DNA from: a virus
DNA: 64,000 bases
Direction: 5' to 3' (one strand)
IMG/VR virus record: IMGVR_UViG_3300012936_000008
Coordinates: 1-64,000 of that record
Shown piece after piece: positions 36,601 through 64,000 of the stretch. Both the position numbers and the translations under genes were made by a program. Position 1 is the first letter of the stretch. Each line of letters begins with the position of its first letter. The notes below the pieces were generated by a model. The model had not been told where the DNA came from. It saw only the letters and a list, made by a program, of their open reading frames with translations, and ran no database searches.

Positions 36601-39600
36601 GATTCAGCAGTGTTCCATCATATTTGAAGCTGGCAATGTTACCAGTCAGTTCATTGTCACTATATTTGATCTCAGTAACGACATTTACGTTACCAAACAC
36701 ATCGGTAGTGATACCAGAGTGTTTGATGCTCTCAAAAGTGACAGTAGGTGCCATGATCTTGGCAAATTGCCATTCAGGAGCAGCAGCAGTCAGTTTAATC
36801 TGATCCATTGCAATCTTGAAGAATGCAACACCATAGTTCTTGGTGCCATTCCACATATCACACACAAAGAACAGATCATTGTACTCATCGAGCACAAACT
36901 GTGGTCTTTGTACACTACCACCACTGACAGCAAGACGTTTTACATAAGTGAGTTCGATATTAGCGCCATCGTACTCCATCTCACCAAAGATGAGGTCTTC
37001 GTTGTCTCCATCGATGCCACAGAAGATAACTTTGTTGTCTCCGATGTAATGCAGTTGATGCATCTGCTCACCTTCGGAGTTAGAAGCGAACTTACGCTTC
37101 TCAATTACATCACCGAAGTTATTGAGTTGCATAACCCAGATATCATCGGGGTCAGGGGAGTTAGTGTCCGTCCAACCACAAATATAGATCCTTTGCTCGT
37201 CGTCAAGGTGGATATCGCCAGCATAGTCACGGCGAGTTGAACCAGACACACCAGCAATCTCTTTCTGCCATCTCAGGATGCCCTCAGGGTTGTTAGCGTT
37301 GTCTAAACCAGACTCATACTTAGCAACTAGGATGTCAGGGTTATATCCAGAGGTTCCTTGGGATTCAGTCTCACCGATCAGGTAGATAAGAGTGTTCTCT
37401 TCGCTAGTCTCGTCGAGATACATCTTCTTCCAACGTGCTTGCTTGATAGAAGCACTAGGAAGCAAAGATCTGTCCCAAATAACACTACCGAGATCATTGA
37501 ACTTAGCAACGAATGCAGAACTGTCACCATTACTCTGTACCAGTTCACCACAGATGTATAGTTCACGTTCAGCAGTTACTGCTGAGTCATGAATCTTAAA
37601 TTTACCACCTTGTGCCGTCTCTTTGAACAAAGTGGACCAATAGTATGTCTTCTTAAATCTTTGAGGATGTGAAACTCTGATCTGAGGGGGTTCATCAACA
37701 GAATAGTTGAAACCAGAGTTAATAATGTTAACAGCACCGATCTTACCAGTGGTTACATCAAGGTCGATATCAAGTTCAACGTCCTGACCCTGAGGAGAGA
37801 TAATCTCATAAGAGGGAGGGATTGCTTCGTTGTAACCGATACCAGACTGAACGATATTAATCGAATCAATGCCTGTAACAACAGACATGTAGAATCTCTT
37901 ATTGGTATTCTCAGTAATAACCCTAGAATTAACGATCACTTCATCCTGAGCGATCAGTTCATGGTCTACTGTTGTAGTGATTCTACCGTAAGGAATATCA
38001 TTGATAACTTCTTTTCTGTACTGAGCAATACCTGCACCTTGTACAGACTCAACTTGTGCAGAAGCACCAAAACCATCGGTTCCAGTATTATCGAAGAATA
38101 GAGTATCGTTGACCTGATAGGATACACCAGGGTTCTCAATAACAAATCCATCGATCTGAGCATTCTCAAACTTCGTGGTTGTTTCAACTTCGATGTCCAC
38201 TCTGGACTCAGTTGAGACTCTTGGGAAGTAATCATAAATCTGCAATGCCGCTTCTTCGGTCATTACTTGGTTCGTTGCAATCTCATTAGGAGAGATGATA
38301 CCGTCACCATCAATATCCTCAGTTTCAAAGAGGATCAGGTCGCCTTCTCGCTCAGTAACGAGTTGGTCGGACTGTTGGTTAGGTTGACGATCAATATCAA
38401 TGTCAACTTCATCATAGGGATCTCTGAAACGAGAAACATCAGCAGGAATGTTTTCCTGGGTTGCTTGCTGACTCAGGTTCCAGGTATCAACCACAGAGTT
38501 GAACTGAGGTCCAATGATATAAGGGAATACAGGCAGACCTGCTTCCGATGCATCAATAGTAATAAAGTAGGCATAGATGCCATCAGGGAACTCAGGAGTC
38601 TTACAGAAACGACCATTGTAAGGATCCAGGTCGCCCTGTTGGAATGCATACTCATAGTCATCCACAAACTCACCAGGTGGATATGTGGTCAGAGAAGGAC
38701 CATCAATACGAGCAGGAGTAGGATTAGTGTCGATATCATATACAACGTTTGCTTTCAGTCTGTAAGAAGAACGCATTCTTCTGATACCACCACTCTGGTC
38801 GGTAGGATCGATGTAACCATAAGGTCCATAGATCGGACTTCCATCAAATGCCCAACCAAGAATAGGAGAGTGGGTGATAGCAGCACCAGTCTCGGTGCCT
38901 TCTTCCTTAAAGGTATTAGTCTCGGGGTCGAGGATTACGTTATCACCAACCACATAGCGCAGTTCTTTGGGGTCGGAAACGTGAGCATACTCACCACCAT
39001 ACTGGTTATTGAAACCAGTGAAGACATAACCACGAGCAATATCATACTTGCTGTTCAGTCCATATTCTAGGTTCTTGTTCCACTCGAACACAGATGCTTC
39101 AAATTTAGCATTCATACCAACTGCTTCAAGTCTAACAGTGGTATTACCTTGGGTATATCCAACACCTCTGTTAGTAATCTGCACAGAGATGACCTTACCC
39201 TTATCTTCACCGAGGGTGCCGATAACAGCAGTTGCCTGAGCACCGAAACCATCACCATTAATGTAAATCGTGGGGGCAGTTGTATACCCCTCACCGCTAT
39301 TAATAATAGCGATAGAAACCAAACGACCATTAATAACGATAGGTTGTGCCAGAGCACCTTCACCAGAGTTCAGTTTGATAGTAGGAGTTGATGTATAACC
39401 ACTACCTCTGTTAGAAAGAACAACACCAGAGATAGGACCACGTACTTGTGCAGTAGCAAGAGCACCAGCACCGCCACCACCAGTGATAGAGATAGTAGGT
39501 TGAGAAGTATAACCAGTACCAGGGTTACCAACCAGAACACGAGTTACACGACCGTTGGTAACAACTGCCTGTGCAGTTGCACCAGATCCACCACCACCAA

Positions 39601-53332: not shown

Positions 53333-53959
53333 TCAAACTGGGATAACATTAAAGGTGAGGGCAACTCTATTATCTGAGGGATTTGATTCATATCCATGGG
53401 TAAGATTTGATGGATAGATGAGAACATCACCCTGAGAGTAAGGAACTGTTGCCTCTTGTAAGTTGAATGCGGTCATTGTTTCAAATGGGAGCATCATGAC
53501 AGGGAACATTTGAGACATGACATTTCTTTTGAATTTAAGAAATGCATGTTGTTCTGGGTCGTAGTTAATGAAGAACGTAGCAGAGAATAAACAATTAGAG
53601 TGCTCGTGTGGGGCATAGATAGCACCCTTAGATGCTAGTTCAACATAACAGTCAGAGATAGCAAAGTTTGATGCATAAGAGAGACCTGATTCGTTGTGCT
53701 TTCGTGCTATGTCTAAGAAGGCAGATTTAAGATCTGGCATATCTTCTAAGATCTTATTTGTTGGTCCTATCTGTTGGACATTATGGCAGATTGCATGGCG
53801 GTCGTGGTCAACGAAATCTTCATTCTTCATCCAGTTAAGAACAGGTTGAACGAAATCTGTGAGATCGTATTTTGTAACGGGCGTCATGAATAACCCGTAA
53901 GTTTCAAACTGAACTACCTCATCGAGAGTATCAGAGAGGTTGACTGTTTTATCTGCCAT
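53333..53959 (-). CDS. 2OG-Fe(II) oxygenase family protein (HxH type)
   Basis: This 208-aa protein shows the double-stranded beta-helix pattern: APHEHSNCLFSATFFINYD with H118-x-H120, then LIYPSNLTHGY with H188, then R198 in NRVALTFNV. The HxH pair followed five residues later by a small residue is the layout of TIGR02466/2OG-FeII_Oxy_5 proteins, where the second metal ligand position is His rather than Asp. The substrate is unknown. The ATG is clean. The gene stands apart from the other six oxygenases, about 3 kb downstream of them. Confidence 0.8.
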   Translation of the reverse strand: MADKTVNLSDTLDEVVQFETYGLFMTPVTKYDLTDFVQPVLNWMKNEDFVDHDRHAICHNVQQIGPTNKILEDMPDLKSAFLDIARKHNESGLSYASNFAISDCYVELASKGAIYAPHEHSNCLFSATFFINYDPEQHAFLKFKRNVMSQMFPVMMLPFETMTAFNLQEATVPYSQGDVLIYPSNLTHGYESNPSDNRVALTFNVIPV

Positions 53960-53987
53960 GATGTGAAGAATTGAAAGTGGTTGACGT

Positions 53988-53993
53988 ATTATA
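53988..53993 (-). promoter_or_regulatory. Possible -10 box TATAAT before the 208-aa oxygenase
   Basis: TATAAT lies about 28 nt upstream of the ATG. No good -35 is seen at 15-19 bp, so it may be a weak or activator-dependent promoter. Confidence 0.35.
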
Positions 53994-54028
53994 TAGTGAT
54001 GTTGATTTAAGGGGCGTTGTAGACGCTC

Positions 54029-54187
54029 TCAGCGCACTCGTAGAGCGTTGTTGATCTTCCTTTGGATGTCAGATGTGGGGCGGATAGCATCAGCGGTTGC
54101 CTCTAATCCATCTGCAATCGTGTGACGTACTTCTGGGGAGTTGTAGCAAAGGACGCCGATGATTGCAACGAGGATGAGTTTAGTCAT
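54029..54187 (-). CDS. Small membrane-type protein, unknown
   Basis: This 52-aa protein was read directly from the ATG at 54185-54187. The start MTKLILVAIIGVLCYNS is a hydrophobic segment with one Lys, like a signal anchor. The rest is polar and basic at the end (RPTSDIQRKINNALRVR). It may be an inner-membrane or secreted small protein. No family is recognised. A second small hydrophobic-start protein (58684-58845) has a similar layout. Confidence 0.65.
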   Translation of the reverse strand: MTKLILVAIIGVLCYNSPEVRHTIADGLEATADAIRPTSDIQRKINNALRVR

Positions 54188-54229
54188 TTGAGTGAGTGAA
54201 GATGTAGAGGAGAGAATAAAATAAAATTG

Positions 54230-54412
54230 TCATTGTAAGAGAGATGTAAATTTTATCTGTGCTGCTTCACTAATAGCAGGAAGATAACCGAGTTCTGATT
54301 GTTGATCTAGTGCGTCGAGTTGATCACTAGTTAAGTTGTGGGAGATTCTATATTCTTCCCATGCCTCATCATAACATGTTTCGTAGAGAGATTCATGATG
54401 TAAAATACTCAT
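54230..54412 (-). CDS. Small acidic protein, unknown
   Basis: This 60-aa protein has the start taken at MSILHHESLYETCYDEAWEE because its ATG overlaps the upstream stop as TGATG. It is acidic and helical (LTSDQLDALDQQSELGYLPA). It follows the widespread 110-aa phage protein in the same unit. Function is unknown. Confidence 0.68.
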   Translation of the reverse strand: MSILHHESLYETCYDEAWEEYRISHNLTSDQLDALDQQSELGYLPAISEAAQIKFTSLLQ

Positions 54413-54744
54413 CAACCCAACCTCATTGAAGAAAAGAAAGGAACGATTGAGACACCTTGTGCAGTGTTCATTGAGACATACCAATCAAAGTTCTTTGCAA
54501 AAACTCTATCGTTAGGTTCGCCATTCTCTTGAAGAATAGCATTAAGGCGAGACTTAGTGGTGTTGGACTGCCAACCGCCATCAAATAAGCGGATGAAACC
54601 TTCACCGATTTCTGCAATTTTGTTGCCGTGAAGTCTCACGATTGAGATCTGCTCTTCTTCGTTGAAGTGAACAGTGGTGTTGCCTGATGTCCAGTTGGTT
54701 GAATTAGCGATGGCGGTGTTCATTGCCTGCTCGATTTTACGCAT
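54412..54744 (-). CDS. Conserved phage protein (RKIEQ / LFDGGW type), unknown
   Basis: This 110-aa protein starts MRKIEQAMNTAIANSTNW. The pattern SGNTTVHFN, then RLHGNKIAEI, then IRLFDGGWQSNTTKSRLNAI, then KNFDWYV, is one I know from many tailed phages of different hosts. No function has been assigned to it that I can state. The start is chosen from this pattern; a longer frame upstream lacks family features. It lies about 60 nt after a sigma70-type promoter. Confidence 0.8.
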   Translation of the reverse strand: MRKIEQAMNTAIANSTNWTSGNTTVHFNEEEQISIVRLHGNKIAEIGEGFIRLFDGGWQSNTTKSRLNAILQENGEPNDRVFAKNFDWYVSMNTAQGVSIVPFFSSMRLG

Positions 54745-54804
54745 GATGTGAGGTTGAAAGGTTTGCGGCGGTGGTGGGTTTGTTTCCCCCCCTCGCTTGT
54801 TCTT

Positions 54805-54833
54805 ATTGTAGTCTATTTGGGTGCCCCTGTGAA
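54805..54833 (-). promoter_or_regulatory. Sigma70-type promoter, TTCACA-N17-TACAAT
   Basis: TTCACA (54828-54833) with a 17-bp spacer and TACAAT (54805-54810) on the minus strand. The -35 is inside a CCCCTTCACAGGGG dyad that could also act as an operator or weak terminator for the gene before it. Confidence 0.62.
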
Positions 54834-54874
54834 GGGGTTTCTTGAAAATTGGGTACAGTTCGCTGACTGGCACA

Positions 54875-55177
54875 TCAGCGGTCGAATTCTCTATATTCTG
54901 CGATGTATTGTGTGACTGCTTCGTTTACATATGCTTCAATCAATTCCTTTGCTTCACATACAGTATCAGCACCGAAGATCTTTTGATAAATTGTCACGCC
55001 GTTGTTCAATTCTTGGCGCTGGTTCACACGATACTTAGGAGGATTCACGTTCCCGATGTGCTCACCGTCGAGATCTTCGGTGATAGTGAAAGAGGGATAA
55101 TCCTCGCCAGTGATCCACACTTCCTCAAAATAGTTAATTTTGTCGAGGTCGCGTTGTGATTTCTGAATGATGAGCAT
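54875..55177 (-). CDS. Hypothetical protein, 100 aa
   Basis: This protein has mixed helix and strand (IQKSQRDLDKINYFEEVWIT, GEDYPSFTITEDLDGEHIGN) and a helical end (AKELIEAYVNEAVTQYIAEY). One Cys is at residue 74. I recognise no family. It lies 35 bp downstream of the 78-aa gene and ends before the intergenic stretch with the promoter at 54805-54833. Confidence 0.68.
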   Translation of the reverse strand: MLIIQKSQRDLDKINYFEEVWITGEDYPSFTITEDLDGEHIGNVNPPKYRVNQRQELNNGVTIYQKIFGADTVCEAKELIEAYVNEAVTQYIAEYREFDR

Positions 55178-55212
55178 TTTAATGCGGGAGAGTTGTTGTA
55201 TATATGCGGAGA

Positions 55213-55449
55213 TTATTGACCGTTCAGGAACTCATGCAGCGCCTCATCATAGTCTTGCTTTGTTTCATATGTGCGACCATGGATTGTGCGCGGATAAGTT
55301 GCATCAAGTCCCGCAGATGCTACCATCATGCAGTCTGCACGATCATAACCCATTTCAACTAGATTTTCGACGTAAGGATTGTTCATGTTTGGTTTGTAGA
55401 TAGTGAGAGAGTTTAGTGAGTCGTTGATGTTATCGAATAGATCAAACAT
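55213..55449 (-). CDS. Hypothetical protein, 78 aa
   Basis: The start at MFDLFDNINDSLNSLTIYKP is preferred: it overlaps the upstream stop by 8 bp and avoids a long, non-family leader. The centre reads PYVENLVEMGYDRADCMMVA, like a small UBA-type helical motif with a Met-Gly-Tyr turn. The end is YETKQDYDEALHEFLNGQ. Function is unknown. Confidence 0.68.
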   Translation of the reverse strand: MFDLFDNINDSLNSLTIYKPNMNNPYVENLVEMGYDRADCMMVASAGLDATYPRTIHGRTYETKQDYDEALHEFLNGQ

Positions 55450-55645
55450 TTGCGCTCTCCCATGCATCGTAGAACAGATCCCATGCCTCTTGTTGATGCA
55501 CAAAGGATGCAATCCCTGACTGGTCAGATACCCAATCATATGCCATATCGATGTCTGCGTTGGTATCAAGGACGAAGGATTGCAGACCTTCGATTGCATC
55601 GATGAATGCTTCGTTCTTGTGGATCATGTTGTTTTCGTTTTTCAT
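55442..55645 (-). CDS. Hypothetical acidic protein, 67 aa
   Basis: The start at MKNENNMIHKNEAFIDAIEG is chosen over a longer frame because the upstream part overlaps the preceding gene and has no family sense. It is helical and acidic, with aromatic residues (FVHQQEAWDLFYDAWESANV). A TATAAT lies 6 nt upstream of the ATG (55652-55657), but no matching -35 was found. Function is unknown. Confidence 0.62.
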   Translation of the reverse strand: MKNENNMIHKNEAFIDAIEGLQSFVLDTNADIDMAYDWVSDQSGIASFVHQQEAWDLFYDAWESANV

Positions 55646-55710
55646 ACATCCATTATAGGCACAGGATCCAGGATTTCGCTGGTGATCTTGTGCCACCTTG
55701 CCAACTGGTT

Positions 55711-55971
55711 TTATTTGCCGACTCCACACGGATCAGAGGCGCTAGATTCGAGGTCGGAGATGTTTACATCTTCTTGATCCAATAATTCAGGATAATACTC
55801 ATTAACCTCTTCAATCAATTCTTCTACACTATATGAGTCAAGATTGTGATCTAATTGATCATAAACCAGTGCAATGAGATCTTTAATATCAAGACCATCA
55901 ATCACGCGGTTGATGTAGTCGTCTTGCAGTTGATCGCGGTCGATGATGTTGTCCTGAGTGTTGCTGGTCAT
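55711..55971 (-). CDS. Hypothetical acidic protein, 86 aa
   Basis: The ATG at 55969-55971 gives MTSNTQDNIIDRDQLQDDYI. It is strongly acidic, with two helices (INRVIDGLDIKDLIALVYDQ, YSVEELIEEVNEYYPELLDQ) and a short end with one Cys (DPCGVGK). It starts 2 nt after the stop of the 63-aa gene. A helical scaffold or inhibitor role is possible, but nothing in the sequence decides this. Confidence 0.7.
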   Translation of the reverse strand: MTSNTQDNIIDRDQLQDDYINRVIDGLDIKDLIALVYDQLDHNLDSYSVEELIEEVNEYYPELLDQEDVNISDLESSASDPCGVGK

Positions 55972-55973
55972 GA

Positions 55974-56165
55974 TCAATTAGCGGGTGTGATTTCGATCTT
56001 AGAGTAGTAAGGTAATTCTCTCATTACCCACTGTTCTAGTTTGTTGTTCTGTGACTTAATGCCCTTTTGTGTTGTTGGTTTTGTGGGCATTGTACGTTGA
56101 AACTCGATCACTTTGTTGTCACAAGTTTCAACGCGAATGTTGTACGTTTGCGTGGTAGTTTGCAT
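55974..56165 (-). CDS. Hypothetical protein, 63 aa
   Basis: The protein MQTTTQTYNIRVETCDNKVI, then basic (QKGIKSQNNKLEQWVMRELP), may fold as a small beta-alpha unit. Its ATG overlaps the upstream stop as TGATG. It is part of a chain of small coupled genes. No family is recognised. Confidence 0.66.
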   Translation of the reverse strand: MQTTTQTYNIRVETCDNKVIEFQRTMPTKPTTQKGIKSQNNKLEQWVMRELPYYSKIEITPAN

Positions 56166-56413
56166 CAACAGGCGCAGGGAGTGTAGGAATCAGGGCATTT
56201 TGTGAAATTAAAATCGGTGACGGTTGCATCACCTGCGAGGCGCTCATTCACCTCATTTCTGAATGTTTGTGCAGTAATTACAGACCATGAGTAAATGTTC
56301 TTACCATAATCGTTCGGGAAAGTAACACGCTTGATGAAACGTTTGACACCTTCATCAGCGATGAATGCTTCTGGAAAAAAGTCAACGATGCAGACTGAAT
56401 TAGTGATTTGCAT
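56165..56413 (-). CDS. Hypothetical protein, 82 aa
   Basis: The ATG gives MQITNSVCIVDFFPEAFIAD; nine extra codons upstream start from TTG and look non-coding. It contains GVKRFIKRVTFPNDYGKNIY and ends with a Cys pair (CPDSYTPCAC). The end overlaps the next start. Function is unknown. Confidence 0.65.
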   Translation of the reverse strand: MQITNSVCIVDFFPEAFIADEGVKRFIKRVTFPNDYGKNIYSWSVITAQTFRNEVNERLAGDATVTDFNFTKCPDSYTPCAC

Positions 56414-56496
56414 GTGTGAAACTCTTGAACTTTTATACAATACACGATCTGAGGTGCTGTGCCGTTATCGTGTGCAACTTAGGCGATTGGCACACC

Positions 56497-57093
56497 TCAC
56501 CAGATCGGTGGGCATGGTGTAAGGTTGCTCACGTTGATTGTTTGATAGTCTGTCTTGCTATTCTGCTGCTTGACGTTATCAATATCAAAATATAGATCAA
56601 TAGTGTCAACAGTGCCATGGTATTGACGAGAGAGGACATCATCGAGTTTAGTGCGATTCTTTGCACTGATAACATCATCGAAACCAGTCACTTCGCCTGC
56701 TGTGTTGAAACGAGGTGCAATGCGAGGGAGAACACTAACGAAGAGAATCTTCTCGATGGTATTACACTTGGGAGCGTAATACAAACGTGCCGCTTCACCG
56801 ACTGTGGTATTTGCATAGTTCTTGATATTCTTGTTTACGTTGCTGTTAATTGCTTTGGCAAGAATAGCAACAACAAGATCACCATCAGAATTAAATCCTG
56901 CGATGTCGATGTCAAATGTGCCACCGAATGCATCCTCTTGAAGTTTATATTCAAACTTCCAATCATACTCAGCGAGGTCAGGATTAGCATTCAAGACCTC
57001 ATCAAGCAGCACAGAATGCAGAGCGTCAGTACGCTTGGAGGAGCGAACATTCTGGAAAGATGTTGAGAGGAAATCTTCTAAAATCATGGTCAT
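56497..57093 (-). CDS. Possible PD-(D/E)xK-fold nuclease-like protein, 198 aa
   Basis: The start is at the ATG giving MTMILEDFLSTSFQNVRSSK. The core EYKLQEDAFGGTFDIDIAGF, then NSDGDLVVAILAKAI, then NVNKNIKNYANTTVGEAARL resembles a restriction-nuclease fold: an acidic residue in a beta hairpin, a strand ending x-K, then an 'NxNKN.KNYANT' helix. The usual Glu before Lys is missing (AKA), so it may be inactive or a divergent enzyme. The C terminus is rich in Thr/Asp. It could instead be an unrelated phage protein. Confidence 0.5.
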   Translation of the reverse strand: MTMILEDFLSTSFQNVRSSKRTDALHSVLLDEVLNANPDLAEYDWKFEYKLQEDAFGGTFDIDIAGFNSDGDLVVAILAKAINSNVNKNIKNYANTTVGEAARLYYAPKCNTIEKILFVSVLPRIAPRFNTAGEVTGFDDVISAKNRTKLDDVLSRQYHGTVDTIDLYFDIDNVKQQNSKTDYQTINVSNLTPCPPIW

Positions 57094-57134
57094 TTGTTTC
57101 AATAAACATACAATACAGGACCACGAGGAAAAAT

Positions 57135-57722
57135 CTACCAATCGTGGTCCAGTTCGCGAGGTGTCACATTCATGTTAAAACTTAGCGTTAATCGATTAGT
57201 GTCATGTTTCTGCAATCTTACGCCATGACGTACAAACGAAGGGAACACAATTAGATCACCCTCATTAATATCAGGGTGCAACACTGGTGACTGTCTGAAA
57301 ATGTGTGTGTAACCTAGAATGGTATGATCTAGATTCATGTTCTCAAAATAGAATTGTCCATCCTTTTCTTTATCGAACTGAATGAAGATCACACCAGAGA
57401 AGTTAATGAAATCAGGATAGTTTACATGGTTGTGTGGTTCTTGTGCATGACCACTGTTATATAAATTCAACCATGAATTAACTATCTCGATGTCACAATT
57501 ACTAGGGAAATACTGATACAGATAGGGTGCTAGGAGTTGTCCGAGTTCTTCGGGAGCGACAACATCTTTCTCCTCAAAATAAGTCGTGTGAACACTACAA
57601 TTCCAACGACCCTCAGCATCAGTAAGGAGATGCCTAGCAGACTCCAAAAGGGATCCGAAGATCTCCTTGTGTTTGTGAATGTGTGCTTGGTGGTACTTTA
57701 TCGGAAACAGTGTTCGGGTCAT
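57135..57722 (-). CDS. 2OG-Fe(II) oxygenase family protein (HxH type)
   Basis: The protein is 195 aa from the ATG giving MTRTLFPIKYHQAHIHKHKE, the N-terminal 'LFPI' start of the TIGR02466 type. An earlier TTG in frame would add three residues. Motifs: WLNLYNSGHAQEPHNHVNYP with H97-x-H99, FSGVIFIQF, then LIVFPSFVRHGV with H166, and R177 in NRLTLSFNM. It overlaps the lysozyme gene upstream by 89 bp in another frame. It is a likely oxygenase of unknown substrate. Confidence 0.82.
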   Translation of the reverse strand: MTRTLFPIKYHQAHIHKHKEIFGSLLESARHLLTDAEGRWNCSVHTTYFEEKDVVAPEELGQLLAPYLYQYFPSNCDIEIVNSWLNLYNSGHAQEPHNHVNYPDFINFSGVIFIQFDKEKDGQFYFENMNLDHTILGYTHIFRQSPVLHPDINEGDLIVFPSFVRHGVRLQKHDTNRLTLSFNMNVTPRELDHDW

Positions 57723-58212
57723 CAGGGACAACTAAGATCAATTTTTTAGTGTAGTCATATGCATATGTGGTACGATTGCCATGGATACCCCATCCCAACC
57801 AGTACCATGCATGATGCATGTAATGCTGGACAGTTTGTCCTCTACCTTTCAACACAAGTTGAAACTCTTGCCACTGATTCTCATTCACCATGTAGCGAAG
57901 TTGTGTATCAAAGTCACTCGGACTCCCCCCGTATGCGCGGGCAAATTGGGCAAGTCCGTCATATCTGTTCTGCGAAGTCCATTGAATCAGACCATATCCT
58001 CCACGCAAACATGCATCGTAAGGAACGATTGCACCTCCCTCACATATTTGATGTTGGAAGTTGCTCTCTTGTTTGATGTTACCGAGTACAGTTGCGATGG
58101 CATTCTTATCATGAATGCCACGCTCTTGCAGGAAATCAGTAACCCTTACCTCAGCAGGTGTGCATCCAACACATTCAATTCTCGGTGCTGGTGGCAGATC
58201 GTACATAATCAT
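57634..58212 (-). CDS. Tail lysozyme-type muramidase
   Basis: This 192-aa protein matches the phage tail-lysozyme (Phage_lysozyme2) layout: IATVLGNIKQESNFQHQICE with Glu49 as the candidate catalytic residue, then GGYGLIQWTSQNRYDGLAQF, and DFDTQLRYMVNE. A Cys-containing head (IECVGCTPAEVR) precedes it. The C terminus (from about residue 160) is Pro/Thr-rich and overlaps the oxygenase start. It would cleave peptidoglycan in entry or release. No holin is seen beside it. A good sigma70-type promoter lies just upstream. Confidence 0.84.
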   Translation of the reverse strand: MIMYDLPPAPRIECVGCTPAEVRVTDFLQERGIHDKNAIATVLGNIKQESNFQHQICEGGAIVPYDACLRGGYGLIQWTSQNRYDGLAQFARAYGGSPSDFDTQLRYMVNENQWQEFQLVLKGRGQTVQHYMHHAWYWLGWGIHGNRTTYAYDYTKKLILVVPDDPNTVSDKVPPSTHSQTQGDLRIPFGVC

Positions 58213-58240
58213 CTTGGTCAGTTTCGTAGTTCAAAATCTG

Positions 58241-58269
58241 AGTATAATCGTCCAGATTGGATATGTCAA
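58241..58269 (-). promoter_or_regulatory. Sigma70-type promoter, TTGACA-N17-TATACT
   Basis: A perfect -35 TTGACA (58264-58269) with a 17-bp spacer and TATACT (58241-58246) on the minus strand, about 30 nt before the lysozyme ATG. It overlaps the end of the preceding 74-aa gene. Confidence 0.8.
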
Positions 58270-58490
58270 TAGTACCTAGGATCGCTAGGTTGGACTCTAT
58301 CCAACTCGGACAGTTGTGGGGATTTGAGCAACTCATGTCTGTAATCCAGTTCTGAATACAACTGGGTTAGAAGGTTTTGTAAGTAGTCTGACTTAATGTC
58401 CTTACATGTAGTCATTAAGTCTAGTGTCTTGTTCTTTGCATCTTCCAGAACGAAACAGTCCCGAGTGCGAACATCGATCCCCGTGGTCAT
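58266..58490 (-). CDS. Hypothetical protein, 74 aa
   Basis: This 74-aa protein (MTTGIDVRTRDCFVLEDAKN) is helical, with LMTTCKDIKSDYLQNLLTQL, and ends RVQPSDPRYY. Its ATG overlaps the upstream stop as ATGA. No family is recognised. Confidence 0.68.
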   Translation of the reverse strand: MTTGIDVRTRDCFVLEDAKNKTLDLMTTCKDIKSDYLQNLLTQLYSELDYRHELLKSPQLSELDRVQPSDPRYY

Positions 58491-58687
58491 GCGAATCCTC
58501 CTCCTTTGTGTTTAGCGTCAATTACTTCAACATGGTCACAATAGTCAGCATAGTTCCACCACGCTTCAATTACTTGCATGTAGTCATCAACAATCTTGAC
58601 AGATCCATCGACACAAAATATCTTATATCTGTGTCGATTGTATGGATCAGCAGATGTATTAGTGAAGAATTCAGGCAATCCAGTCAT
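58487..58687 (-). CDS. Hypothetical protein, 66 aa
   Basis: Starts MTGLPEFFTNTSADPYNRHR. The ATG is chosen over an in-frame GTG 15 nt earlier because it overlaps the upstream stop as ATGA. It has a strand pair YKIFCVDGSVKIVDDYMQVI followed by aromatic residues (EAWWNYADYCDHVEVID). Function is unknown. Confidence 0.68.
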   Translation of the reverse strand: MTGLPEFFTNTSADPYNRHRYKIFCVDGSVKIVDDYMQVIEAWWNYADYCDHVEVIDAKHKGGGFA

Positions 58688-58845
58688 CGGAATTCTCGGC
58701 ACATTTCATCATAACCTGCACCCACGGGCACAGATTTACAGAGTCGTGTCATCTTCCTATCTTGGATGTCTGACACTGTACCGATAGCATTGACACCAAT
58801 GATAGTGCCAACAACTAAAACAATACCGAGGAGAGCGAAACGCAT
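58684..58845 (-). CDS. Small membrane-anchored protein, unknown
   Basis: This 53-aa protein was read directly from the ATG at 58843-58845. It starts MRFALLGIVLVVGTIIGVNA, a typical signal-anchor segment, then becomes polar with two Cys (LCKSVPVGAGYDEMCREFR). It is translationally coupled to the 66-aa gene by ATGA. The two Cys could form a disulfide outside the membrane. No family is recognised. Confidence 0.68.
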   Translation of the reverse strand: MRFALLGIVLVVGTIIGVNAIGTVSDIQDRKMTRLCKSVPVGAGYDEMCREFR

Positions 58846-58908
58846 GATCAATAATCTGGTGTGTACTATGCTAGGTCTTACGCTTAATACTGTGCTGCCT
58901 AGTGTTAA

Positions 58909-59097
58909 TTACTTCTGGAACTTACCGTGCTTAAATGTAGCGTACTCAGGGTTGTTGACCCAACGACCCTCAGCGCAGGACCATACGATAGGCAGCGGTG
59001 TGGGTTGTGGAGCGTTGTGAGCAGTCTTGCGGAGCAGTTCACGAGACTCAGCGAACAGTTCGTCGAGAGTGAGGCGAGCAGGGCGAACACCGTACAT
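58909..59097 (-). CDS. Hypothetical protein, 62 aa
   Basis: Starts MYGVRPARLTLDELFAESRE and ends AEGRWVNNPEYATFKHGKFQ. The start is chosen over a competing frame one base away because its residue make-up is balanced and the rival is Ser/Leu-rich with no structure. A promoter-like TATAAT precedes it. Confidence 0.58.
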   Translation of the reverse strand: MYGVRPARLTLDELFAESRELLRKTAHNAPQPTPLPIVWSCAEGRWVNNPEYATFKHGKFQK

Positions 59098-59122
59098 GGT
59101 TGGTTCCGTTGATTACTTTGTA

Positions 59123-59150
59123 ATTATAGGGTCTGAGGCGACCCTGACAG
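59123..59150 (-). promoter_or_regulatory. Promoter-like CTGTCA-N16-TATAAT with dyad
   Basis: TATAAT (59123-59128) and CTGTCA (59145-59150) on the minus strand are spaced 16 bp. The spacer holds the perfect stem AGGGTC/GACCCT (59128-59145). The dyad may be an operator or a terminator of the oxygenase gene before it. Confidence 0.5.
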
Positions 59151-59164
59151 TATTTAGTATGCCA

Positions 59165-59683
59165 CTAAGATATGTGGACACCCTTGTGTGGACAGATCGC
59201 GCCAAGACTGATACGAATGTCATTCGTGGGCGGTTCGCCGTCGTGCTCTAATAGTGAACTAAACACAATGATTCTACCCTTCTTAAATGCTACTCGTTGC
59301 CCATTTGCAAAGGTAGTATCACCGTCCTCACCATATGCATGGTATATGACACTAGTAGCAGGACGATTGAAGTCTGTATGTGTCTGTGAGGTGTGTCCAG
59401 GGTTCTGTGCATTTACTAGCAGTCTATGCACATGTGTGAGTGGTAGATCCTTACAAATATCCTTCATGATACATTCATTGAAGTATGCAAAGAACCAATA
59501 CCATGGTGTCTCATTCGTGAACTCATTATCTCTGATGACAGTGTTACCCCAGAATCTTGCTTTCTTATAGTCACCGTATGGTGTGTTGTTATAGAAGAAT
59601 GGGAAATCTGTTGAGAGATAGTTACCCACATCATCTATAATCCAGTCTGGAAAGTATCCATCAATAATTCTAATATCACTCAT
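59165..59683 (-). CDS. 2OG-Fe(II) oxygenase family protein (HxD type)
   Basis: This 172-aa protein has QTHTDFNRPATSVIYHAYG with H102-x-D104, then SSLLEHDGEPP with H147, then R157 in NDIRISLGAICP. This is the classical HxD...H...R set. The N terminus MSDIRIIDGYFPDWIIDDV resembles that of the other HxD members in the block. It overlaps the neighbouring HxH oxygenase by ATGA, so two types of this superfamily are co-translated. Confidence 0.83.
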   Translation of the reverse strand: MSDIRIIDGYFPDWIIDDVGNYLSTDFPFFYNNTPYGDYKKARFWGNTVIRDNEFTNETPWYWFFAYFNECIMKDICKDLPLTHVHRLLVNAQNPGHTSQTHTDFNRPATSVIYHAYGEDGDTTFANGQRVAFKKGRIIVFSSLLEHDGEPPTNDIRISLGAICPHKGVHIS

Positions 59684-60270
59684 GATAGTATAAAGTTCGC
59701 TGAAACGGTTATTCTTGCTTGTGTGGTGTCTGCCTGTGGTGTCACCTGATGATGAGTGTAGGATGGAAATATAATTATATCACCTTCCTTCACATCTGGG
59801 AACCATGTGTTCGTTGCAGGATAATGTTTAGTAAAGTATCCATGATGCACATCCTGATTAGGATTGTAGAATACAAAACTACCATCAGTTTCAGGATTAT
59901 ATTGTAGGAAGTAAGCACAACTAAATGCTGTGTTATCTCCTCCACAATGTGTGTGTACCTCTTGTGATTGCCCTTGCTTATATACATTTATCCACGCATC
60001 GCTCATTTTGATGGTGGTCTTGTCCTTTCCACCCAGTTGGACGTGCATGTCCATGAGATTATCGGAAATATAGTTGTTGAACATCTGCCATGAAAAATCG
60101 TCCCGATTCGTGTCACTTTCAAAGGACGACGAAACAGAACAATTCCATTCGGCAGGTTGTGTGAGTGTTGCTGTACCTAATTCATACAGCAACATTGCTT
60201 TCAGTGACTCATGATTTCTCACTTCCCCATGGTAATACCATTTAGGAAATAGATTTTGTACTTTACCCAT
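59680..60270 (-). CDS. 2OG-Fe(II) oxygenase family protein (HxH type)
   Basis: This 196-aa protein starts MGKVQNLFPKWYYHGEVRNH. Motifs: WINVYKQGQSQEVHTHCGGD with H106-x-H108, CAYFLQYN, then IIIFPSYTHHQV with H173/H174, then R186 in ARITVSANF. It begins within the helicase stop (TAATG). It is probably an oxygenase of unknown substrate. Confidence 0.83.
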   Translation of the reverse strand: MGKVQNLFPKWYYHGEVRNHESLKAMLLYELGTATLTQPAEWNCSVSSSFESDTNRDDFSWQMFNNYISDNLMDMHVQLGGKDKTTIKMSDAWINVYKQGQSQEVHTHCGGDNTAFSCAYFLQYNPETDGSFVFYNPNQDVHHGYFTKHYPATNTWFPDVKEGDIIIFPSYTHHQVTPQADTTQARITVSANFILS

Positions 60271-61526
60271 TATGCAACAAGAGAGAGGGGAGGAATGCCT
60301 TTGACGAAGATAGCATCAACGACATTTTGCAGACGCTTGACAACATGCTTGCCATAAGTCTTGTGGACAGGGACAGTAACGAAACCAGTGGGTTTGTTGT
60401 AGAAACCCCACTGACATGCTGTAAGTTCACCAGACTTCAAACGTGCAGCGTCATTCTTATCTAGGCGGATAACACGACCGATAGTCTGTGCCATCTCAAC
60501 CACGTTAAGGTTACGCAACAAAATGCAGTGAGTGAGACCAGGGACGTTGATACCTTCGCTGAGGATACTGTAATGGAAAACAATGAACTTGCGACCATCT
60601 TCTTTACCCCATGTTGTAAGAGTATCGAAGAATACTTCACGAGATACTTTCTTACCGTTGATGATAGCACCGAACTTAGATGTAACGTGCATGACATCAT
60701 AACCACGCTCTTTGAGGTCAAGGAGCAGAGTTGTGCGAGATACCATGTTACCCAACACACGAGAAGAGGGAACAGCAACCAGAACTTTACTGGCGTGTGT
60801 CTCATCAAGGTTGTCAAGAATGTCACGCACAGTGTCAGCATCTACATCGTGGATGTTGTGCTTGGTACGCTCGTTGTCTGTCTCGAAAGGAACAATCGTG
60901 GGACGGAGAATGTGACCCTGCTCAATGAGTTCAGGAGCAGGAACGTTGCAGATAACACTACCATAGATGTCAGTATTACCCATCGAACGAGAGTGACGAC
61001 GAGAAATACGAGGGGTGGCAGTAAAGAAGTAGCAACGATCAGCGACCATGGATGTTGCAGCAGTGCCAATGAAGAAGGACTTGCCAACACTGTTGTGTGC
61101 CTCATCAAAGTATGCACAGTCGATAGAAATACCGCTGTCAATGATCTTAGGGAGAGAATGATAGGTGGTGAAGATGATGCGATGTGTCACCATAGATGCA
61201 CACATCTTGTCGAACATTTGAATGCGATCGATCTTAGTTGTGCTGAAATGCTTGGTCTCGCCACTGTGAACGTGAGCAGGAACAAGGTCAGGACGAACAA
61301 CACCAGGGAACGACAGGAACTCATCGCAGAGTTGATTAGCGAGGAGAATGCGAGGAGCAACCACAACGAAGGTCAGAGGGCGCTCAGCAGCGTCCATGAG
61401 GCGCTTGGCGTGTTCGATCATGATGATGGTCTTGCCACCACCAGTAGGCACGATAACCTGACCTTTGTCAGCGTCCTGCATTGCAGCGAGTGCTCGTGCT
61501 TGGTGGGGACGGAGAGTGATGGTCAA
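60270..61526 (-). CDS. SF2 DEAH-type DNA/RNA helicase
   Basis: This 418-aa helicase has its motifs in order: Q-motif LRPHQARAL (5-13), Walker A PTGGGKT (27-33), VVVAPRILLANQ (54-65), DEAH (141-144), TATP (169-172), SEGINVPG (323-330) and QTIGRVIR (347-354). It lacks the UvsW DECH box and is a different helicase of the restriction-type R-subunit / SSL2-like group. The frame opens with TTG; an in-frame TAA lies just upstream and there is no ATG before the Q-motif. It follows a strong terminator and sits among the oxygenases. Confidence 0.88.
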   Translation of the reverse strand: MTITLRPHQARALAAMQDADKGQVIVPTGGGKTIIMIEHAKRLMDAAERPLTFVVVAPRILLANQLCDEFLSFPGVVRPDLVPAHVHSGETKHFSTTKIDRIQMFDKMCASMVTHRIIFTTYHSLPKIIDSGISIDCAYFDEAHNSVGKSFFIGTAATSMVADRCYFFTATPRISRRHSRSMGNTDIYGSVICNVPAPELIEQGHILRPTIVPFETDNERTKHNIHDVDADTVRDILDNLDETHASKVLVAVPSSRVLGNMVSRTTLLLDLKERGYDVMHVTSKFGAIINGKKVSREVFFDTLTTWGKEDGRKFIVFHYSILSEGINVPGLTHCILLRNLNVVEMAQTIGRVIRLDKNDAARLKSGELTACQWGFYNKPTGFVTVPVHKTYGKHVVKRLQNVVDAIFVKGIPPLSLVA

Positions 61527-61550
61527 GGCGTGTCTGTGTCGTTACTATAA

Positions 61551-61556
61551 ATTATA
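61551..61556 (-). promoter_or_regulatory. Possible -10 box TATAAT before the helicase
   Basis: TATAAT lies 24 nt upstream of the TTG start and directly follows the terminator. No good -35 is seen (the upstream bases belong to the terminator stem), so the promoter may need another factor. Confidence 0.38.
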
Positions 61557-61560
61557 CAGC

Positions 61561-61588
61561 AAAAAGGGGTGCTTAGCACCCCCTTGTG
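61561..61588 (-). terminator. Rho-independent terminator
   Basis: On the minus strand GGGGTGC-TAA-GCACCCC forms a 7-bp GC-rich stem (TTA loop on the plus strand), then TTTTT. It sits 9 nt after the stop of the 46-aa gene and separates the oxygenase group from the helicase unit. Confidence 0.9.
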
Positions 61589-61596
61589 ACAGTTAT

Positions 61597-61737
61597 TCAA
61601 TCGGACAGCGGACTCTCGCGCTTCAAGAGATGATACTCTTTCTTTAACACACTCTCCACATAGTTACTGATTCGTGTGTCTTCTTCTGTCTCGTAATACT
61701 CTTCGATTACGGTTTGTTTGTAGTCATAATAAGTCAT
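61597..61737 (-). CDS. Small helical protein, unknown
   Basis: This 46-aa protein was read directly: MTYYDYKQTVIEEYYETEED, then TRISNYVESVLKKEYHLLKR. It is acidic then basic, with a likely helix. The start overlaps the 109-aa gene stop as ATGA. It is followed by a strong terminator, which supports it as the last gene of this unit. Confidence 0.72.
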   Translation of the reverse strand: MTYYDYKQTVIEEYYETEEDTRISNYVESVLKKEYHLLKRESPLSD

Positions 61738-62063
61738 CGTTCTGTGATTGATGGTAACATTTCATTGCCTGGGTGATCATTAGTCTTGCCCCTATATGCT
61801 TTGCTATATGCAAAGTGATCACTATCTAACTCTAACTCCTCCCAGTCCCATTCTTGAACAACTAAACAACATTTGTTCATTGGTCGTTTAGATCCTGGTG
61901 GATTAGGTTTCTCGCTAACACACAGCAGCAAATGTGTGTCATCGATGTAATTAATATACCCTTCATGTCCTCTCCACCTACATCGTGCCCCAACAGATAG
62001 GGACTTAACGATATTTCTGATCTCTAATGCTGGTGCTTCTGAGATGAATAAGGGTGTAGTCAT
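61734..62063 (-). CDS. Hypothetical protein, 109 aa
   Basis: This 109-aa protein has VGARCRWRGHEGYINYIDDT, then LLLCVSEKPNPPGSKRPMNK and CCLVVQEWDWEELELD, like a small SH3-type beta barrel with a basic patch. Its ends share ATGA overlaps with both neighbours. I recall similar cyanophage proteins but no function. Confidence 0.72.
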   Translation of the reverse strand: MTTPLFISEAPALEIRNIVKSLSVGARCRWRGHEGYINYIDDTHLLLCVSEKPNPPGSKRPMNKCCLVVQEWDWEELELDSDHFAYSKAYRGKTNDHPGNEMLPSITER

Positions 62064-62659
62064 AGTGTTAGGTGTGAAGTTGCTTGACCGTATTCTCCTC
62101 TAATCATGAGATTAAAGGCGAGAGAGTACCTCCTATTTGTATCTTGGTTTGGTTGTACTGAGTGTACCAGATCTGAGGGGAAGATCACGACCATACCGTC
62201 CACTGGTTGAAGTGTCCACCGTGGACTGTTATACACATTAAATGAAACTCTATCAGGATCCAGTGTGTGATACTTATGATTTGTGAACACTAGACCACCA
62301 CACTTAGGATTTGTCTTCAAGTACACAATGCCACTAAACATGCTGTTTCTATGTGCATGTTCATGTGCAGATTCTAAATGATCATGACAATTAATCCATG
62401 AACATGGTATATCAATTATATATTTCTCATCGATACCCATCGTGCCATAGATATACTCTTTGACATGTGGTTCGATGAAGTCCATGATCTCAGGTAGGTC
62501 AGCAATCACATTTTGATTGACTGATTGACTACCTCTCCACTGTTCTTTCTGTTGATACTCTAAATTCTCAACGTCATCAATGACGTAGGGCAGATTATCA
62601 CCAACTGCACAATATACAGGTGATGAGAACAAGGGGATAATCTCAGATGAAATTTGCAT
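62060..62659 (-). CDS. 2OG-Fe(II) oxygenase family protein (HxH type)
   Basis: This 199-aa protein has WINCHDHLESAHEHAHRNSM with H101-x-H103 and FSGIVYLKTNP, then VVIFPSDLVHSV with H166, and Arg in RRYSLAFNLM. The start MQISSEIIPLFSSPVYCAVG fits the 'LF..P.Y' entry of the TIGR02466 group. It is coupled to the 109-aa gene by ATGA. Confidence 0.84.
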   Translation of the reverse strand: MQISSEIIPLFSSPVYCAVGDNLPYVIDDVENLEYQQKEQWRGSQSVNQNVIADLPEIMDFIEPHVKEYIYGTMGIDEKYIIDIPCSWINCHDHLESAHEHAHRNSMFSGIVYLKTNPKCGGLVFTNHKYHTLDPDRVSFNVYNSPRWTLQPVDGMVVIFPSDLVHSVQPNQDTNRRYSLAFNLMIRGEYGQATSHLTL

Positions 62660-63164
62660 TAATTAGGATCCTATTCTTGTGCTCACTAGGACTGTATCCT
62701 GTGTGCATGTGTCGTCCGTTGAATGTTAGGAGTCTGTTCTTCTTTGGTTGCACACGAACGATGTCGTGATCGTTCTTGTCTCCCAGAATAATAGTGTCGC
62801 CATCAGTATCGTTGACATAATAGATACACACCTTATGTGGTTTTTTGGAGTCTACATGAAAATCATGACGAAATACATTAGGGTTATACAGTGTCATATC
62901 TGCGCGTACACGTAGACATTCTTTGCACTGTATTTCCTCTTGCATCTTTGCTACTAAGTCAGCAAAATCAGGGTCTCCATCAACTGTCAACCAGTGATTG
63001 AAACCATGTGCTTCTAACTTATCAGATCCATTCGTCAACGTATGTTGATAGAACCAAGGAAACTCCCACCCCATGAGTATATCGTGGAGGTGAGAGTGAT
63101 AGTCAGAATCGAGGAAATCATCGATGATCCTCATGTCTGAGATGCAGGGCGGTCGCAATTTCAT
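62643..63164 (-). CDS. 2OG-Fe(II) oxygenase family protein (HxD type)
   Basis: This 173-aa protein has DFHVDSKKPHKVCIYYVND with H103-x-D105, then GDTIILGDKN, RHMHTGYSPSEHKNRILINA with H154 and R165. The true start may be M11 (MRIIDDFLDS), where related proteins begin. It overlaps the preceding small gene and the next oxygenase, so it is tightly packed in the cluster. Confidence 0.84.
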   Translation of the reverse strand: MKLRPPCISDMRIIDDFLDSDYHSHLHDILMGWEFPWFYQHTLTNGSDKLEAHGFNHWLTVDGDPDFADLVAKMQEEIQCKECLRVRADMTLYNPNVFRHDFHVDSKKPHKVCIYYVNDTDGDTIILGDKNDHDIVRVQPKKNRLLTFNGRHMHTGYSPSEHKNRILINANFI

Positions 63165-63297
63165 TAATCAGATTTTTCTTTTCAATGGGTACTTCGCCTA
63201 TCTTATGATAGTATTCCTTTTGTAAGGAAAACAGTGCATGACGCAGAAGAGTTTTCTGCTCTTCGTTAAGCATTTGAGATTTAAGGAACATGGTCAT
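63118..63297 (-). CDS. Small helical protein, unknown
   Basis: The protein is 59 aa from the ATG at 63297 (MTMFLKSQMLNEEQKTLLRH); a GTG further up is possible. It is helical and basic in the middle (LQKEYYHKIGEVPIEKKNLI). It overlaps the start of the HxD oxygenase. No family is recognised. Confidence 0.6.
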   Translation of the reverse strand: MTMFLKSQMLNEEQKTLLRHALFSLQKEYYHKIGEVPIEKKNLINEIATALHLRHEDHR

Positions 63298-63334
63298 GGG
63301 TGCGGAGACCACTACTATTTAACTGTTTACCCTC

Positions 63335-63357
63335 AGATGATAGCAACTGTATCATCT
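63335..63357. promoter_or_regulatory. Perfect 8-bp inverted repeat, operator-like
   Basis: AGATGATA and TATCATCT are perfect inverted repeats around a 7-bp loop, in the gap between the first oxygenase and the 59-aa gene. No T-run follows, so an operator is more likely than a terminator. Confidence 0.4.
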
Positions 63358-63373
63358 ACTGCAATACCCCTTG

Positions 63374-63958
63374 TCAGGATTCGGTGACTCGTGGTTTGAA
63401 GTTGATATTCAGTGCAAGGCGGTATCCCTCACTTGGTGATGATGAAGCATGTAATTGCTTACCATCGAACACAACCATTTTACCACGTTCAGGTGCAACA
63501 CGCAACTGACATGCATGTTGAAATATACTCATCTCATCAGTGAAGAAGAATGTATCTCCATCACTGTTGTTAATATAATATAGTGCAGTAGTATGATCCT
63601 CCTCAAAGTCTACATGTGGGCAATGATGTTTTAATCGGTCAGGAAGAAGGCAACCAAGGCGCACCCGATACACATCATTAAAATCTTGATTAGCACCATC
63701 AGCAATAATCCTCAAAGCAGACTCTAATAAGTCATAGTATTGTGATACAGGTTGATAGTCCATCATCACAACATGTGAGAATGAACTATTATTGAATTTA
63801 CCCTCGTAGGGTGAGTATCCATCAGCAAATGTGGTCTCTTTAACTAGATACCATGGGAACTGTTGTTGTGTCACCAGTTCCTCAATCTGATCCTGAATAA
63901 TCTCAGGCAGAGGATAACTAGAACTCAATAACATATTGTTTTCTGTCGCTGGGTACAT
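63374..63958 (-). CDS. 2OG-Fe(II) oxygenase family protein (HxD type)
   Basis: This 194-aa protein has HHCPHVDFEEDHTTALYYIN with H115-x-D117, then GDTFFFTDEM, MVVFDGKQLHASSSPSEGYR with H170 and R180, and LALNINF. The start MYPATENNMLLSSSYPLPEI is clean. It is the closest relative of the 173-aa gene by motif layout and suggests duplication. The window ends about 40 nt upstream of its ATG, so I cannot see its promoter. Confidence 0.84.
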   Translation of the reverse strand: MYPATENNMLLSSSYPLPEIIQDQIEELVTQQQFPWYLVKETTFADGYSPYEGKFNNSSFSHVVMMDYQPVSQYYDLLESALRIIADGANQDFNDVYRVRLGCLLPDRLKHHCPHVDFEEDHTTALYYINNSDGDTFFFTDEMSIFQHACQLRVAPERGKMVVFDGKQLHASSSPSEGYRLALNINFKPRVTES

Positions 63959-64000
63959 CTCGTGGATACATGCAAGGGATAGACATTGACAATCGTTTAC

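Follow-up and report, generated by a model that had tools for sequence, protein, structure and literature searches.

Why does a cyanophage carry seven 2-oxoglutarate (2OG)/Fe(II) oxygenase-type genes between positions 53333 and 63958 of its sequence? The question is raised by IMG/VR record IMGVR_UViG_3300012936_000008, a 72,573-nt sequence of a T4-like cyanomyovirus whose closest isolate found is Synechococcus phage S-WAM1. The window analysed here is the first 64,000 nt of that record (bases 1-64000); positions above 64000 are record coordinates beyond the window. All seven open reading frames (ORFs) are intact and lie on the minus strand. Four encode an HxH…H…R set (53333, 57135, 59680 and 62060, each gene being named by its first position) and three an HxD…H…R set (59165, 62643 and 63374), a division that a preliminary description had drawn and that PF13759, PHROG 81, PHROG 274 and family alignments bear out. 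A further 2OG ORF was looked for in window positions 1-53332, and none was found. The same description read the block as one dedicated system of modification and not as scattered accessory genes. This holds for the contiguous part, which is kept in conserved order and linked to tail-fibre-tip adhesins, a flavin halogenase and a JmjC oxygenase, but not for the argument from gene number. On balance, the probable though far from certain explanation is a cassette of late genes whose products hydroxylate and halogenate the adhesin of the tail-fibre tip.

A conserved adhesin-halogenase-oxygenase unit

Gene number carries no signal. Among 21 phage genomes, 2OG genes are plentiful in all cyanomyoviruses, whereas T4 gives one weak match at most and Campylobacter phage CP21 none. 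The count of seven was put forward as telling and is rejected here, because cyanophages without the block hold as many 2OG genes. Per genome, such a number is usual among T4-like cyanophages, whereas the linkage is unusual. Nor are the seven genes a natural unit, as the unit begins at adhesins outside the window, near 70087, and contiguously takes in three of the seven. The pelagiphage HTVC008M, with 16 PHROG 81 matches, has a 2OG group of its own next to the neck genes and no adhesin.

Read along the minus strand, the unit opens with two glycine-rich tail-fibre-tip adhesins of PHROG 863 (69284-70087 and 68451-69251; PF21722 40.6 and 33.5 bits), followed by a 154-aa protein, a VirX1-type flavin halogenase (66382-67974; PF04820 316.6 bits), a 167-aa protein, two HxH genes outside the window (65226-65939 and 64622-65281) and a JmjC_2 (ROX-type) oxygenase (63918-64631, of which the 3' end, 63918-64000, lies in the window). 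From the second adhesin through to 63374, neighbouring genes overlap or lie at most 7 nt apart. The three window genes that belong to this cassette are 63374, 62643 and 62060; 59680 and 59165 lie after a UvsW-like gene and are conserved in phages of the same architecture, and 57135 and 53333 lie at the periphery and may have another role. Translational coupling had been claimed and is confirmed, if slightly understated, in that two pairs rather than one mix the two types: 62643 (HxD) overlaps 62060 (HxH) by 17 nt, and 59680 (HxH) overlaps 59165 (HxD) by 4 nt.

The same arrangement recurs widely. An adhesin search (best 80 of 331 matches) gave 77 IMG/VR contigs, 58 of which extend at least 7 kb downstream of the adhesin. 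Within 8 kb downstream, the halogenase and an HxH gene are each found in 58/58 contigs, an HxD gene in 57/58 and JmjC in 49/58. The density of 2OG genes is 0 from -10 to -4 kb around the adhesin and 0.4-1.0 per kb from +3 to +9 kb, and every one of the 318 2OG genes in the adhesin-anchored contigs shares the adhesin's strand. Contigs anchored on JmjC have the adhesin and the halogenase upstream in 56/56. The isolates agree: the halogenase is adjacent in each of 18 isolate records with the adhesin (DQ149023, counted among them, is a second record of Syn9). In the 21-genome set, PHROG 863 exceeds 200 bits in this record and eight phages, and JmjC exceeds 60 bits in this record and seven of those eight, always inside the block. 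Near relatives might have held the same number of genes free of any linkage; they keep the genes, and keep them linked.

Two architectures are seen. With A for adhesin, X for halogenase, h for HxH, d for HxD and J for JmjC, type 1, to which this record belongs, reads A-A-X-h-h-J-d-d-h-UvsW-h-d, and type 2 reads A-A-A-X(X)-h-d-J-h-d. In the tree, the HxH proteins of slots 1 and 2 fall into clades made up of cassette phages only, and the slot-1 protein (65226) occurs in 15 of 50,697 phage records, of which 14 belong to cassette phages and one is an unannotated fragment from a single cell. The adhesin-halogenase-oxygenase unit is conserved across many ocean viruses of cyanobacteria.

The start of the unit is marked by a short motif. 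TATAAATA stands in the short gaps just upstream of both adhesin starts and nowhere else in the record's final 22.5 kb. In relatives, NATAAATA lies upstream of 113/206 adhesins but of only 10/799 genes for the enzymes or UvsW. The count of TATAAATA in this record, 2 against 1.1 in shuffles, is not significant by itself, and the support comes from position and from the relatives. Because TATAAATA is the late-promoter element of T4 and is placed before the adhesins, it fits a predicted late transcription running from the adhesins into the enzymes.

Co-inheritance and correlated divergence

The unit is present or absent as a whole. Two S-RIM44 isolates, NC_047734 and KX349297, have closely matching flanks, with 95.9% identity towards the baseplate and 94.8-98.1% towards the neck, and between these flanks fibre identity falls to 68-70%. 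There NC_047734 has three adhesins, two tandem halogenases, an HxH pair, an HxD gene and JmjC, none of which lies at that place in KX349297, where a single, different HxH gene and two other small genes stand instead. Two isolates filed under one species therefore differ by an entire tail-fibre-tip and enzyme block despite flanks of 95-98%, and they offer a natural contrast for adsorption and virion comparison.

Adhesins and enzymes also diverge together. Across 29 non-redundant loci, protein distances correlate at r 0.89 for adhesin and halogenase and 0.89 for adhesin and JmjC, against 0.45 for adhesin and UvsW. Controlling for UvsW leaves partial correlations of 0.88 for the halogenase and 0.86 for JmjC, which 0/2000 permutations reached. 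Within types, the adhesin-halogenase correlation remains 0.73, and the adhesin-JmjC correlation in type 2 is 0.61, reached by 2/2000 permutations. At type-1 loci the mean distance is 0.12 for the adhesin and 0.28-0.35 for the enzymes; the adhesin is the more conserved partner there although the hosts span Synechococcus and Prochlorococcus.

Enzyme families and folds

All four HxH proteins of the window exceed the PF13759 gathering cut-off of 27 (37.9-68.4 bits) and match PHROG 81 at 1e-29 to 2e-43. The three HxD proteins match PHROG 274 at 3e-28 to 2e-46; against PF13640 (cut-off 27), 63374 scores above (28.1), 62643 slightly below (25.6) and 59165 has no match. Both groups conserve the metal triad and the 2OG-binding arginine of the 2OG/Fe(II) oxygenase superfamily. 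Among 68 HxD relatives with a mean identity of 27%, the sole invariant columns are H102, D104, H147 and R157, and among 393 HxH relatives, H106 is conserved in 100%, H108 and H174 in 99% and R186 in 93%. Because these key residues are conserved family-wide, chance occurrence of the motifs appears very unlikely. The HxH proteins have histidine at the second motif position, against the Asp or Glu of the usual triad, which suggests a predicted metal site of three histidines. The nine 2OG proteins in the record share just 15-29% identity with one another, which marks them, by sequence, as old paralogues and not recent duplicates.

The double-stranded beta-helix expected of such enzymes was checked on one HxD protein, 59165, which has the weakest Pfam support of the seven. 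Its AlphaFold2 model (pLDDT 93.6) has the fold and resembles prolyl hydroxylases: structural alignment gives Z 17.0 and rmsd 2.4 over 162 residues with PHD2, Z 16.9 with Pseudomonas putida P4H and Z 15.7 with the PBCV-1 collagen prolyl hydroxylase. AlkB is also among the fold matches and falls below the prolyl hydroxylases after structural realignment. For the HxH proteins the same fold is predicted from sequence matches to two solved, uncharacterised proteins, 3BVC and 2RG4, which have the same HxH…H…R motif.

In many cyanophage records the PHROG 274 family bears the label 'DNA endonuclease V' or denV, which is rejected here: the HxD proteins of the window and the P-SSM2 'denV' (stretch 17225-17773) have 2OG matches and no PF03013 (Pyr_excise) match, and genuine PF03013 genes sit elsewhere in the same cyanophage genomes. 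By these family matches, the cyanophage 'denV' genes of PHROG 274 are 2OG/Fe(II) oxygenases.

The JmjC protein (237 aa) scores 60.7 bits with PF08007 against a cut-off of 22, its HxD…H residues H139, D141 and H205 are invariant in nine proteins, and its nearest solved sequences, NO66, MINA53 and YcfD, hydroxylate histidine or arginine in ribosomal proteins. The halogenase retains GGGTAG (GxGxxG) and WVWDVP (WxWxIP-like, with I to V). Both adhesins exceed the PF21722 cut-off of 24.3, which assigns them a glycine-rich lattice domain. No solved chain matched the adhesin in a sequence search, and the relationship was therefore sought by structure model: the model of a 95% identical relative aligns with the Pam3 fibre gp24 (7YPX) at Z 21.4 over 180 residues with 29% identity. 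In the passages of PMC9608196 that concern it, receptor recognition is assigned to the glycine-rich domain of gp24. The S-CREM1 adhesin (stretch 10639-11442), annotated as a collagen-like protein, belongs to this glycine-rich tail-tip family.

Proposed function and alternative explanations

In the favoured explanation, modification of the adhesin, a late transcript would begin at the glycine-rich adhesin genes and run on into the enzyme genes. Besides the VirX1-type halogenase and the ROX-type JmjC hydroxylase, its products would include several 2OG/Fe(II) hydroxylases from two subfamilies. The enzymes would target the freshly synthesised adhesin, or the end of the fibre bearing it, and side chains of the poly-glycine receptor-recognition domain would be hydroxylated and halogenated before or during assembly. 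The modification could tune adhesin stability or receptor binding, and through it adsorption. The enzyme types are protein-directed by their relatives, JmjC lying near NO66, MINA53 and YcfD, and the HxD model near prolyl hydroxylases, which hydroxylate proline in proteins. Because the enzymes sit behind the adhesins and move with them, they would most simply act on the adhesin. A virion protein is also the best fit among the targets that the preliminary description had listed; nucleobase modification, another of them, gains no support.

Since the type-1 adhesin stays conserved while its enzymes diverge, receptor specificity or stability might, more tentatively, be set in part by chemistry, through hydroxylation and halogenation (possibly iodination or bromination) of the phage's own tip. 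Cassette adhesins conserve residues Y149, N174 and H179, whereas S-H35, whose adhesin has neither the halogenase nor JmjC beside it, has other residues at these positions; naming the three candidate modification sites is a guess from a single case found post hoc. Adhesin His233 and His236 were considered as an explanation of JmjC presence and rejected, since both vary in S-RIM44, which has JmjC.

Several observations weigh against adhesin modification. The linkage leaves the substrate unnamed, and another fibre protein or a fibre-type-dependent host target would match it too; the modified adhesin, the enzyme activities and the presence of the adhesin in the virion are predictions from genes. 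The contig counts include related phages, so they show linkage rather than independent events. S-H35 has an adhesin of the PHROG 863 family with no adjacent halogenase or JmjC, Sf-FR1 lacks JmjC, and the cassette-less S-RIM44 allele (KX349297) retains one HxH gene at the fibre tip. In type 1 the adhesin-JmjC partial correlation is just 0.53, a value reached by 94/2000 permutations. Relatives of the HxD protein 62643 were found in 187 phage records, many from phages that lack the cassette, so this subfamily is not cassette-specific.

A rival with a minor but real chance keeps the co-travel and changes the target. Depending on fibre type, the enzymes might modify another virion protein such as the fibre shaft or an assembly chaperone, or else a protein of the host surface or ribosome, and would travel with the adhesin since both are host-specific. 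The linkage and the S-RIM44 swap would fit equally well, and the ROX relatives do hydroxylate ribosomal proteins. However, it is the adhesins that lie directly upstream of the enzymes and diverge in step with them, a weak objection in that the comparison covers the adhesins and not other fibre genes. It is also conceivable, although improbable, that there is no system and that the fibre-tip region is a hot spot gathering unrelated accessory genes, as the commonness of 2OG genes throughout cyanophages and the separate positions of 57135 and 53333 would allow. The conserved slots already disfavour this idea: order is kept in two divergent architectures, slots 1 and 2 are cassette-restricted clades, and divergence is correlated.

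The remaining rivals draw on published proposals. An auxiliary metabolic role, in which the genes turn over 2OG or reprogramme host nitrogen metabolism (PMC3037559, PMC9602691, PMC9964418), leaves the fixed order behind the adhesins, the halogenase and the presence or absence of the genes as a unit unexplained, and appears unlikely. Very little probability attaches to DNA repair or nucleobase modification, a role suggested by some 2OG genes neighbouring uvsW and also proposed in the literature (PMC9146016). The abutment of 59680 on UvsW and the AlkB fold matches speak for it, yet most cassette 2OG genes stand between adhesin, halogenase and JmjC and not at UvsW, prolyl hydroxylases outrank AlkB on structural realignment, and UvsW divergence follows the cassette less closely. 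Just as improbable is a small-molecule pathway in which halogenase and oxygenases produce a halogenated metabolite; PrnA-like halogenases use free tryptophan and antibiotic protection has been suggested (PMC2984593, PMC9964418), but none of the cassette genes was recognised as encoding a scaffold-building enzyme, and the tie to the adhesin would be unexplained.

Lists of auxiliary metabolic genes have included the 2OG oxygenases and halogenases of cyanophages for more than 15 years, the guesses at their role being nitrogen metabolism, DNA repair or antibiotics. If adhesin modification is right, a large and abundant gene set would shift from host metabolism to virion maturation, and phage receptor-binding proteins would gain a post-translational chemistry that the literature searched does not report.

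The individual genes of the window

Directly after the JmjC gene lies 63374-63958 (194 aa; PHROG 274 3e-37), which has orthologues in S-WAM1, S-SZBM1 and P-RSM6 in the tree. It is followed by 62643-63164 (173 aa; PHROG 274 2e-46), from the family labelled denV in cyanophages, and 62060-62659 (199 aa; PF13759 68.4 bits), whose orthologue is present in the P-RSM6 cassette. The S-WAM1 orthologue of 62643, in stretch 6247-6771, is annotated too short (record 36468-36770), as the match begins at about record position 36249.

Within the block, a UvsW-like DNA helicase (60270-61526, minus strand; PHROG 16, PF04851, PF00271) abuts 59680-60270 (196 aa; PF13759 53.6 bits, PHROG 81 2e-43). Close orthologues of the latter (53-83%) occur in IMG/VR contigs, many of them also recovered by adhesin or JmjC queries. 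The modelled HxD gene, 59165-59683 (172 aa; PHROG 274 3e-28), comes next.

The peripheral genes are 57135-57731 (198 aa; PF13759 49.4 bits, PHROG 81 4e-37), with orthologues in S-WAM1 and P-RSM6, and 53333-53959 (208 aa; PF13759 37.9 bits, PHROG 81 1e-29), which is not contiguous with the cassette and has orthologues in S-WAM1 and S-SZBM1. The former adjoins a phage-lysozyme-like gene (57634-58212; PF18013, PHROG 512) whose 3' end overlaps it by 98 nt, and this overlap suggests that the oxygenase may start downstream of the TTG used. Elsewhere in the window, 21623-43192 is one ORF of 7189 aa, placed like the very large virion structural protein of S-SZBM1 and P-RSM6.

Comparison with known systems

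In the literature, cyanophage 2OG genes are treated as metabolic or repair genes (PMC3037559, PMC9602691, PMC9964418, PMC9146016) and the halogenase as a metabolite enzyme (PMC9964418, PMC2984593). A search for tail fibres together with hydroxylation, prolyl hydroxylase or halogenase found no link; its scope did not extend to Weigele 2007 (Syn9) or Gkotsi 2019 (VirX1). The single enzymes are of known kinds, and it is the conserved unit of adhesin, halogenase and oxygenases that appears undescribed.

Each component resembles a known protein, yet displays distinctions. The HxH proteins share HxH…H…R and, by sequence, the fold with TIGR02466/PF13759 (3BVC, 2RG4), although the four in the window fall below the TIGR02466 cut-off of 62.5 (32.6-58.8), which 65226 outside it reaches (95.5). 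The HxD model finds its nearest folds in PHD2, P. putida P4H and PBCV-1 vCPH (Z 15.7-17.0 over 147-165 residues) at only about 12-16% identity. Like the ROX hydroxylases NO66, MINA53 and YcfD, the JmjC protein exceeds the PF08007 cut-off and conserves HxD…H; it is shorter and aligned over the JmjC core only, and protein hydroxylation is its predicted activity. The adhesins share their glycine-rich domain with Pam3 gp24 and T4-type gp38 tips, and the accounts of those adhesins, in the passages concerned with them, describe no enzyme cassette.

A close counterpart is VirX1, the flavin-dependent halogenase of Syn10 (PDB 6QGM), which belongs to the same family as the halogenase of this record (E 2e-108) and is itself the halogenase of the Syn10 cassette. 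VirX1 was studied on non-natural aromatic substrates; the sections of PMC8407142 that describe it report a large, accessible active site and a broad substrate range, and give neither a natural substrate nor the genomic context. If the adhesin is the target of the cassette, the question of VirX1's natural substrate would become directly testable.

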